From positions 1-42,850 of the IMG/VR virus record IMGVR_UViG_3300013307_000011: 42,850 bases of DNA; one strand, 5' to 3'. This DNA is from a virus. Positions within the stretch are counted from its first letter, which is position 1; each line of letters starts with the position of its first letter. A program made the translations under genes and the position numbers. This document shows, piece after piece, positions 15,471 to 42,850 of the stretch. The notes under the pieces are model-generated. The model saw nothing but the letters and a program-made list of their open reading frames with translations, did no database searches and was not told where the DNA came from.

Positions 15471-15495
15471 CCAATCATCAACAAGGGGATTAGAA

Positions 15496-19140: not shown

Positions 19141-19492
19141 TTTGGATCTAGCTATCAGAATGTGGAAAGAGGGCGCTTCTGCTTCGCAAATCGCCAAAGC
19201 TTTGGGTTCAACGCGAGGTTCCGTTATGGGGCATGTGCATCGAAAGCGTGATTTATTCGAACGCAGGGGGACGCCAATACATTCTCCTCCAGAGCCGCGT
19301 AAGCCCGTTTCATTGGAAAAAAGAACGCAATACGACAGTTCCAGGATTGAATTTGCAAAGCCTTTGATTGACCTGGAGAGGGGAGAATGCAAATGGCCCT
19401 TGACGGAACGGGGACCGCACCTTTTTTGTGCGGCGGAGACGAAAACGAATTACTGCGATCACCACACCGCGAGATATTACCGCTGCGCATGA
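19127..19492 (+). CDS. gcrA: GcrA-family cell-cycle regulator
   Basis: 121 residues, TAGGGGAAG before ATG, overlapping the previous gene by 14 bases. The N-terminal HTH (FDLDLAIRMWKEGASASQIA, STRGSVMGHVHRKRDLF) and the C-terminal Cys/His module (ERGECKWPL, FCAAETKTNYCDHH) are the GcrA signature. In Caulobacter and relatives GcrA acts with sigma70 at promoters bearing methylated GANTC. The family is confined to Alphaproteobacteria, which dates the host group. A phage copy could redirect host or phage promoters. Confidence 0.85.
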   Translation: MQPFDLDLAIRMWKEGASASQIAKALGSTRGSVMGHVHRKRDLFERRGTPIHSPPEPRKPVSLEKRTQYDSSRIEFAKPLIDLERGECKWPLTERGPHLFCAAETKTNYCDHHTARYYRCA

Positions 19493-19692
19493 TGGATAAC
19501 CCACTTACGCCCCAACAAAAGGAAGTTGTTGAATGGCTATCTCACGGAAAAACTTTTGGCGAAATTGCCATCATTCTAGACGTTTCTTACAAGGCTGTAA
19601 CGAGGCGTATGGAAAGGGTATGGATTAATACCGGAACAAGCAACCGACACGGTATTGTGGCTATGGCTCTGAGAAACCACTGGATAGAGTAG
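19489..19692 (+). CDS. LuxR/GerE-type HTH protein
   Basis: 67 residues from the ATG at 19489, overlapping the GcrA stop (ATGA). LTPQQKEVVEWLSHGKTFGEIAIILDVSYKAVTRRM in segments is a GerE-type HTH with the usual L-T-x-x-E-x-E-V start; the recognition helix is SYKAVTRRM. No receiver or ligand domain: the protein is only the DNA-binding domain. Probably a transcription regulator acting with GcrA. Confidence 0.75.
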   Translation: MMDNPLTPQQKEVVEWLSHGKTFGEIAIILDVSYKAVTRRMERVWINTGTSNRHGIVAMALRNHWIE

Positions 19693-19701
19693 TGTAGGGG
19701 C

Positions 19702-19730
19702 TTGAAACAAACAAAGGGGTACTGTAATTA
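19702..19730 (+). promoter_or_regulatory. Sigma70-like promoter for the candidate small RNA
   Basis: TTGAAA (19702-19707), 17 bases, TAATTA (19725-19730), with TG just before the -10. It lies right after the LuxR-type gene. Transcription would start near 19737, directly before the non-coding stretch ending in a strong terminator. Confidence 0.5.
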
Positions 19731-19736
19731 TTAACC

Positions 19737-19830
19737 ATTCGACGTTGAGCGCTTGAAGCTTCCTCCCCCTTGGCTGAGTTCCGTTGAATCTTAAGGCCCT
19801 GGCTGTTCCCCGGCTGGGGCCTTTTCTTTT
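19737..19830 (+). ncRNA. Candidate phage small RNA with C-rich anti-Shine-Dalgarno loop
   Basis: About 95 nt bracketed by a promoter and a rho-independent terminator, without a good reading frame. ATTCGACG (19737-19744) can pair with CGTTGAAT (19782-19789) to close a loop that displays CTTCCTCCCCCTTGG (19759-19773). That loop is complementary to the AAGGGG / CCAAGG ribosome sites used throughout the early genes, including the gene immediately downstream. C-rich loops of this kind are known in alphaproteobacterial sRNAs. Existence and targets are inferred. Confidence 0.5.
19793..19830 (+). terminator. Rho-independent terminator
   Basis: AAGGCCC (19793-19799) pairs with GGGCCTT (19817-19823) around a 17-base loop, followed by TTCTTTT. 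It ends the rightward early operon and the candidate sRNA. Confidence 0.75.
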
Positions 19831-19872
19831 CAAATAAATTGTTTTATGATATCTCCAAACCAAGGAGATACA

Positions 19873-20181
19873 ATGGCTATCAAGATCAAGACAGACACCG
19901 CGCCTGATGAGCGCAAGAAATCGGCAGGGTTTAGTAATCGTTCTCATGCAGTCGGTTCAGAAATGGACGCTAAAGGTGGTGCCGTCCCCAGCGGGGGAGA
20001 TAACCAACGAGACGAAGCAGGTGCGACTCCTGCGCCGCTACAGGTAGCGAACGATACCCCTTCACGCACATTCCGAACACGAGCGCCTAATAACACGTTT
20101 GACCGCAAGGCGTACATGGCTGAGTACATGCGGCAGTACAACGCAAAAAAGAAGGCTAAGAAGCAGAATGATGTTGACTAG
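19873..20181 (+). CDS. Hypothetical protein with basic C-terminus
   Basis: 102 residues from the ATG at 19873 (CCAAGGAGAT upstream); an in-frame start nine codons earlier has no ribosome site. The N-terminal two thirds look disordered (Gly/Pro/Asp/Thr). The C-terminus FDRKAYMAEYMRQYNAKKKAKK is a basic helix often seen in small phage proteins. Function unknown. Confidence 0.5.
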   Translation: MAIKIKTDTAPDERKKSAGFSNRSHAVGSEMDAKGGAVPSGGDNQRDEAGATPAPLQVANDTPSRTFRTRAPNNTFDRKAYMAEYMRQYNAKKKAKKQNDVD

Positions 20182-20242: not shown

Positions 20243-20914
20243 ATGAAATTTGATGTTCTTGATCGCTACACAGGCGAAGTAAAATTTACGGCTGACATTT
20301 CTTGTGATAAGTCGGCGCTTCCATCGGTTAAGCTTGGGCTTGCAGTTAAGTGGGCCATTAAGGAAAACGCCAACCTGCGCTCCGCCGACCTGCGCTCCGC
20401 CGACCTGAGCTACGCCAACCTGAGCTCCGCCGACCTGAGCTCCGCCGACCTGCGCTCCGCCGACCTGAGCTACGCCAACCTGAGCTACGCCGACCTGCGC
20501 TCCGCCGACCTGAGCTCCGCCGACCTGCGCTACGCCAACCTGAGCTACGCCGACCTGAGCTACGCCGACCTGCGCTCCGCCAAAAATGCAGAATGGGCTG
20601 TAGCTGTAACGCGCATTCTTCCAGAGGGTGATTTGATCGGATGGAAAAAATGCCGTGAAAATGTTATTGTAAAGCTTAGAATTCCTGAAGACGCTAAGCG
20701 TTCTCATGCTTTTGGTAGAAAGTGCCGCGCTGAATATGCTGATGTTATTGAAGTCATTGGAGCAGATAGGGGAATTTCTATACATGACGGAAAGACAGAA
20801 TATGTAGCCGGTACTCGTGTAACTCCTGATAGCTTTGACGAAAATTGGTCAGAAGAATGCTCTTCAGGAGTTCATTTTTTCATAACTCGGATTGAGGCTG
20901 AAAAGTATGTTTAG
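20243..20914 (+). CDS. Pentapeptide-repeat protein with DUF5758-like C-terminal domain
   Basis: 223 residues, AAAAGGGGA before ATG. Residues 43-112 are fourteen A-[N/D]-L-x-x pentapeptides, predicted to form a right-handed quadrilateral beta helix. The rest ([70 protein letters not shown]) is a DUF5758-type domain often joined to such repeats in phages. Some pentapeptide proteins mimic DNA and block gyrase, but this subtype has no known activity. The repeat DNA is almost uniform, unlike the flanks. Confidence 0.85.
20369..20578 (+). repeat. Fourteen tandem 15-bp units within the pentapeptide gene
   Basis: Every unit is GCC-[A/G]AC-CTG-[A/C]GC-T[A/C]C. Only three of the fifteen positions vary, each between two bases; the codon wobble positions never vary. 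This low divergence implies recent expansion or ongoing homogenisation. Confidence 0.95.
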
Positions 20915-42381: not shown

Positions 42382-42850
42382 ATGCCAACATACGAAGTTG
42401 AAGTAAACGGCCAAAAATTTGATATTGACGCACCGGATGATAACGCTGTGCAAATGGCTGTGCGGCAACTTCAAGGCCAGAAAAATAGTTCCGAAGGCAC
42501 AGGTCCAAATCTGGATGAGTATTACTCGTCAGGAATATACTCCGGTGCCTATAACCCACTAGGCCCCATCGCAAAGACCGTCGATGCTTTCGCCACAAAT
42601 GCCCAAGCCGCTCCGTTGTTTGGGTGGGGAGATGAGGCTGTAGGTGGTCTTTCAGTTCTGGGTGGCGGAGATTACCAGAATAACACTAATGCAGTTCGCT
42701 CAAGAGAAGAGCAGCTATCGAATAGCAATCCCATTGCTTCCACAGCAGGGACGATTGCCGGTAGCGCGCTGACTGCAGGCGGCTTGTCTCAGGCTGGCGT
42801 TCTTCCATCGGGAATGTTGCCGCAGGGCGCATCGCTGCTGTCGAGGGTAG
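42382..42850 (+). CDS. Large virion/ejection protein, 5' part (continues at base 1)
   Basis: ATG follows directly after the stop of the tail-lysozyme gene. The N-terminus (MPTYEVEVNGQKFDIDAP, then a helix with VQMAVRQLQ) looks like the short N-terminal module seen in many phage internal or ejection proteins. The next 90 residues are Gly/Ala rich. The frame runs off the right end and continues in frame at bases 1-1745 of the circular molecule. It is the last gene of the virion series 39482-1745. Confidence 0.7.
   Translation, partial: MPTYEVEVNGQKFDIDAPDDNAVQMAVRQLQGQKNSSEGTGPNLDEYYSSGIYSGAYNPLGPIAKTVDAFATNAQAAPLFGWGDEAVGGLSVLGGGDYQNNTNAVRSREEQLSNSNPIASTAGTIAGSALTAGGLSQAGVLPSGMLPQGASLLSRV
42728..42850. 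repeat. Terminal direct repeat, right copy (123 bp)
   Basis: Identical to bases 1-123. It marks the circle closure, so the unit genome is 42,727 bp. Confidence 0.9.

Follow-up and report, generated by a model that had tools for sequence, protein, structure and literature searches.

The window analysed here comes from a virus record and spans 42,850 bases. The proteins that it encodes include a terminase, a portal, an Erf/Rad52-like annealing protein, a Gam/Gp157-like protein and a GcrA-like protein, and it is therefore probably a phage of an alphaproteobacterium. Its small early genes form a rightward block, the last products of which are a protein with a DnaA-like C-terminal motif, a GcrA-like protein and a LuxR/sigma-r4-like protein. 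The unit described here lies at the early/late junction, where the early rightward operon ends, and the terminase is located 4.3 kb downstream of it, with small genes between. One gene of the window (20243-20914) contains a low-complexity pentapeptide-repeat tract that matches tracts in Rhizobium, Rheinheimera and Bordetella phages.

Anatomy of the predicted transcription unit

Direct reading of the sequence placed TAATTA at 19725-19730, 17 nt 3' of TTGAAA, which is the sigma70-like promoter proposed by the first-pass annotation. An alternative reading (TGT-AATTAT) gives an extended -10 with a spacer of 18 nt. The number of promoter-like sites in this region does not by itself exceed chance (14 against an expectation of 11.2), and the promoter call therefore rests on conservation, the -35 and -10 being unchanged in three phages.

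The same annotation had described a non-coding stretch followed by a strong terminator, and a stem enclosing a C-rich loop; both descriptions were borne out. A coding potential of 19737-19830 was rejected, since this segment holds no ATG, and the terminator hairpin (19793-19823), with 13 pairs and a T-rich tail, was the strongest in the 10 kb scanned. The arms ATTCGACG and CGTTGAAT pair with each other, one of the pairs being G-U, and the minimum-energy fold of the RNA added inner helices while UCCUCCCCCUU stayed an apical loop (-34.9 kcal/mol, z = -3.2, equalled by 1 of 200 shuffles). The 15-mer CTTCCTCCCCCTTGG has a single exact occurrence in the window. Both the anatomy and the limits of conservation are those of an independent unit, with a promoter and a terminator from which its transcription is predicted, and we consider it very probable that 19702-19830 is a real sRNA gene (Table 1).

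Table 1. Coordinates of the unit, of its candidate targets and of alphaR8 RNAs in other phages (window positions unless a locus is named)
Feature	Position	Strand	Remarks
LuxR/sigma-r4-like protein gene	19387-19692		directly 5' of the sRNA unit
-35 box TTGAAA	19702..19707	+	invariant in three phages
Promoter spacer, 17 nt	19708..19724	+	contains both variable positions of the element, 19716 and 19717
Extended -10 (TG..TAATTA / AATTAT)	19723..19731	+	invariant in three phages
Predicted small RNA, ~94 nt	19737..19830	+	start placed from the promoter; without ATG; 94/94 identical in three phages
Closing stem, 5' arm ATTCGACG	19737..19744	+	from sequence and fold
Closing stem, 3' arm CGTTGAAT	19782..19789	+	from sequence and fold
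Apical C-rich anti-Shine-Dalgarno loop UCCUCCCCCUU, 11 nt	19761..19771	+	inside CTTCCTCCCCCTTGG (19759-19773)
Intrinsic terminator of the sRNA	19793..19830	+	by position also terminates the early rightward operon
5' UTR of gene 19873, candidate target	19846..19880	+	98-100% identity with G001 and G002; fold z -3.1
Candidate target site, AAGGGG 5' of gene 15496	15483..15488	+	
Other candidate AAGGGG sites	17599, 18265, 18646, 20230, 22562, 23169, 23405	+	
Other candidate AAGGGG sites	9453, 10078, 12408, 14177	-	
alphaR8 loci in other phages	L080:3495-3575, L081:3495-3578, L084:3495-3575, L083:3477-3577, L082:3501-3599		

Conservation in related phages and searches for further copies

Two related IMG/VR phages, G001 (856-986, + strand) and G002 (42466-42600, - strand), carry the unit with 98-99% identity over 131-142 bp between non-homologous flanks; the genome segments that they share with the window are ~90% (G001) and ~75% (G002) identical in nucleotides. 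Alignment of the three copies (131 columns) showed variation at only two positions, both in the promoter spacer, and none in the 94 nt of the RNA. The conserved block begins at GCTTGAAA, the -35 box, and ends at the T tail of the terminator. On the sequence evidence, these limits are those expected of a self-standing transcription unit; a recent exchange of a cassette could also explain the identity, and with these exact limits the cassette would still be a unit. Failure of the loop and stem to be conserved in related phages had been named as grounds for abandoning the idea, and both are invariant in G001 and G002. Covariation gives no information for this RNA since the three copies are identical.

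The unit has the same place in the three phages, at the early/late junction and 3' of the last early gene. The identity of this gene varies: it encodes the LuxR-like protein, after the GcrA-like one, in the window, a GcrA-like protein in G001 and a 211-aa protein in G002. Between the sRNA terminator and the next shared piece lie 742 bp of unrelated DNA in G001 and 144 bp in G002. The DNA between the sRNA and the homologue of gene 19873 in G001 includes a tRNA-Arg (TCT; L054:1508-1583). Directly after the sRNA, G002 has a second unit with a promoter-like sequence, a hairpin and a terminator (L059:2331-2450, minus strand), which is possibly another small RNA.

Searches of IMG/VR with loop, stem and stem-terminator patterns revealed no copy beyond those of the window, G001 and G002. 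The exact loop 15-mer had 45 matches in IMG/VR, with the element carried only by L016 and L023, and the real matches to a stem-plus-CCTCC pattern were only G001 and G002. A scan of a genome collection gave one match (L068), which was rejected because it lies in apparent coding DNA without the hairpin-terminator context. Searches of INPHARED and PLSDB by blastn returned only chance matches of the size of a terminator or a promoter, and the element was absent as DNA from 385 alphaproteobacterial genomes. A covariance model (R1) gave weak matches in 26 of these same genomes; they were set aside, as the ten alignments shown cover mainly the terminator and none has the C-rich loop. The LuxR-like protein as query found no relatives, and the portal and terminase queries returned few.

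Complementarity of the loop to early ribosome sites

AAGGGG can pair with the 16S anti-Shine-Dalgarno sequence only via a G-U pair, while its match with the CCCCUU of the loop is perfect. The calculated duplex energy of CAAGGGG was -14.0 kcal/mol with the loop and -7.4 kcal/mol with the 16S sequence, whereas that of AAGGAG was -6.2 and -8.2 kcal/mol, respectively. The three phages contain 17, 20 and 20 AAGGGG-N3-10-ATG sites, when shuffles contain about 2.4, 2.9 and 3.2. Complete relatives that lack this RNA contain 1, 4 and 1, a comparison that is only suggestive as support for the target idea because these relatives have a higher G+C and probably different hosts.

Comparison of early and late genes showed that AAGGGG precedes 12/51 early and 1/27 late genes, 19/61 and 1/30, and 13/43 and 2/34 in the three phages (p = 0.028, 0.002 and 0.009, respectively), which share ancestry and are thus not independent replicates. 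The script that called the gene starts gives preference to Shine-Dalgarno sites; when starts were picked without Shine-Dalgarno information the early bias remained, though weaker (p = 0.05, 0.03 and 0.02), and the shuffled-loop test gave 17-25 of 200. A contiguous complementarity of at least 6 nt to the loop was found for 18/51 early and 3/27 late genes, the figure for random 18-mers being 3%, so that the exposed loop is complementary to ribosome sites beyond chance. The energy of the loop-to-site duplex was also lower for early sites (median -9.9 versus -7.2, p = 0.003), a contrast reached by 14 of 500 shuffled loops, while the 16S anti-Shine-Dalgarno sequence gave no significant difference between early and late sites (p = 0.13). 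Within the same genome AGGAG/GGAGG is more frequent among the late genes, and a simple preference of the host is thus a less likely reason for the bias. AAGGGG is also present at one conserved late gene (25726). A preferential complementarity of the loop to early AAGGGG sites is thus supported statistically at the sequence level, in three related, non-independent phages.

The first-pass annotation had the loop complementary to the ribosome sites of most early genes and suggested that the RNA controls the whole early class. The early bias is indeed strong, but "most" was too broad in view of the 12/51 genes with AAGGGG and the 18/51 with a match of at least 6 nt, and control of the whole class was not upheld: the share of early genes with the site is only between a quarter and a third, and cofolding of the hairpin with targets detected no specific binding above shuffles. 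Cofolding has to open the stem and cannot represent loop kissing, which the proposed contact would therefore have to be. The C-rich loop will pair with many G-rich Shine-Dalgarno sites, those of the host included.

The predicted complementarity to CCAAGG before gene 19873 was confirmed, as CCAAGG is present there and matches CCUUGG of the sRNA. It is part of the loop/Shine-Dalgarno region of a hairpin (TATCTCC/GGAGATA) in the 5' UTR that sequesters the Shine-Dalgarno sequence, and this hairpin is a possible cis-regulatory element.

Proposed role, alternatives and known RNAs

We propose that an independent phage small-RNA gene closes the early rightward operon. Its sigma70-type promoter would give an RNA of ~94 nt, with the 5' end locked in a stem and UCCUCCCCCUU presented in a hairpin loop ahead of a strong terminator. 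This RNA, with Hfq if Hfq is involved at all, would act in trans, its loop pairing with ribosome sites of the AAGGGG type, chiefly those on early mRNAs of the phage itself, and the pairing would block translation initiation and help the early-to-late switch. A chromosomal analogue speaks for such a role: SisA of Caulobacter represses many mRNAs via a 10-mer that has an anti-Shine-Dalgarno signature (PMC12559287). We give a probability of about one half to repression of the AAGGGG early genes of the phage being its main role. More tentatively, AAGGGG may be a private ribosome-site dialect of the early genes, which the ribosome reads via G-U and which one RNA matches, while late genes of the AGGAG type largely escape. 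Temporal control in phages is usually attributed to transcription factors, antitermination or sigma factors; if the proposal is correct, recognition of a class-specific ribosome site by an RNA would place an early-to-late switch at the post-transcriptional level, and a single RNA could turn down a class of early genes.

The RNA might instead be a mimic of, or a competitor to, host sRNAs of the alphaR8 type, although we consider this rather unlikely. The alphaR8 core is UUUCCUCCCU (PMC12559287). UUCCUCCC of the phage sRNA has 8 of the 10 positions of this core and would act on host mRNAs or on host sponge RNAs (such as CrfA), so that host metabolism would be redirected and pairing with phage early sites would be secondary. 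AlphaR8 RNAs at a comparable place in L067 and in two Bradyrhizobium prophages also speak for such a mimic. However, the RNA scored 19.2 bits (E = 0.1) against RF00519, whose gathering cut-off is 41, with no match at gathering level in the whole window; UUCCUCCC, partly in a stem and partly in the apical loop, is out of register with the family core in the cmscan alignment; and the additional CCCCUU fits AAGGGG rather than alphaR8 targets.

Results with the RF00519 covariance model showed that three INPHARED phages exceed the cut-off (62.8, 62.8 and 47 bits) while two fall below it (37 and 32 bits). These alphaR8 sRNAs, in OP596613, PP395640, OM681334, KY940711 and OP596612, are not annotated as RNA. 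L067, a metagenomic relative with a terminase 73% identical in amino acids, has a near-threshold alphaR8 RNA (L067:9130-9207, 35.9 bits, E = 4.9e-6) between the early genes and the HNH-terminase. Among the five INPHARED phages, two Bradyrhizobium prophages (62.8 and 32 bits) carry theirs immediately ahead of the HNH-terminase. Three of the six phage alphaR8 RNAs (L067, OP596613 and OP596612) thus lie just upstream of an HNH-terminase block, and the others lie elsewhere. We claim no shared descent of the window RNA with that of L067, as the alignment places their cores out of register. Since several phages hold alphaR8 RNAs, phages of this host group seem to acquire anti-Shine-Dalgarno sRNAs repeatedly. 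The expectation that a phage-borne RNA of this kind would be new has to be narrowed accordingly, given these family members in sequenced phages and the blocking of ribosome sites by sar and c4. Several lineages of phages carry anti-Shine-Dalgarno sRNAs of the alphaproteobacterial type, in three cases close to the terminase, and annotation missed them. The "Microcystis" phages Mwe-JY13, Mwe-JY08 and yong2 (L072, L081 and L084) have a GcrA-like gene or alphaR8 sRNAs, which are typical of alphaproteobacteria; their host labels look doubtful.

Lambda has a similar arrangement, Q-pR'-6S-tR', in which a promoter, a short RNA and a terminator follow regulator genes at the early/late boundary. By analogy, the unit would be a late promoter with a short RNA that is a terminated leader of little function until a late regulator, the GcrA- or LuxR-like protein, allows read-through. 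The unit directly follows the last early genes, whose products are GcrA-like and LuxR/sigma-r4-like regulators, and lies upstream of the late block, which agrees with this. The small genes that fill the 4.3 kb before the terminase do not agree, and neither does the unrelated DNA that follows the terminator in both relatives, with the tRNA gene of G001 and a further terminator. A mere leader would also need no invariant C-rich anti-Shine-Dalgarno loop, and we regard this explanation as improbable.

It is slightly less probable still that the unit is only the operon terminator and a preceding hairpin, such as a stabiliser in the 3' UTR of the early operon, the promoter being a chance match. It does lie at the operon end, and promoter-like matches are as common in shuffles, but conservation starts exactly at the -35 box, includes the -10 and stops short of the upstream genes, each of the three phages having different ones. 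We regard conservation as DNA, in a recombination, origin or packaging site, as very improbable, and likewise a recent swap of a cassette between phages. The absence of homology in both flanks speaks for such readings, and so do the mosaic early regions and the other segments with at least 95% identity. Against them, the ends coincide with promoter and terminator, and a recent swap would explain the identity but would not on its own account for the functional anatomy or for the match to AAGGGG.

With respect to known families, the repressor RNA that we propose appears to be a scaffold distinct from alphaR8, and we claim no membership in alphaR8, ar14, cuckoo or sar. Like the alphaR8 RNAs (RF00519 suhB/mmgR; Caulobacter SisA-D, Sinorhizobium MmgR), it is short and has a Rho-independent terminator (19793-19830) and a C/U-rich anti-Shine-Dalgarno core, UUCCUCCC. 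The alphaR8 core, however, is a single-stranded 10-mer between a weak hairpin and the terminator, whereas the window RNA presents its core on a long closed stem, in the apical loop, and this loop is extended by CCCCUU.

The Cuckoo/CcsR RNAs and alpha-r14 (NfeR1; RF02344 ar14), which act in trans in alphaproteobacteria, likewise show a C-rich anti-Shine-Dalgarno motif, of the CCUCCUCCC type, in a hairpin loop. They are chromosomal and not phage-borne, and the motif of the window RNA is CCUCCCCCUU; CCUCCUCCC is absent from its loop, which reads UCCUCCCCCUU, and its ar14 score was 14.7 bits for a cut-off of 58.8. The top sub-threshold Rfam match was sar (RF00262), with 22.2 bits, mostly from the terminator, for a cut-off of 43, and homology with sar, GlmZ and the other sub-threshold Rfam matches was rejected. 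Like the window RNA, sar of P22 and c4 of P1/P7 are small structured phage RNAs directed at ribosome sites of phage mRNAs, which they block (sar of P22 and c4 of P1; PMC12197685). Both act on one mRNA, ant, whereas the loop of the window RNA is proposed to act on many early genes.
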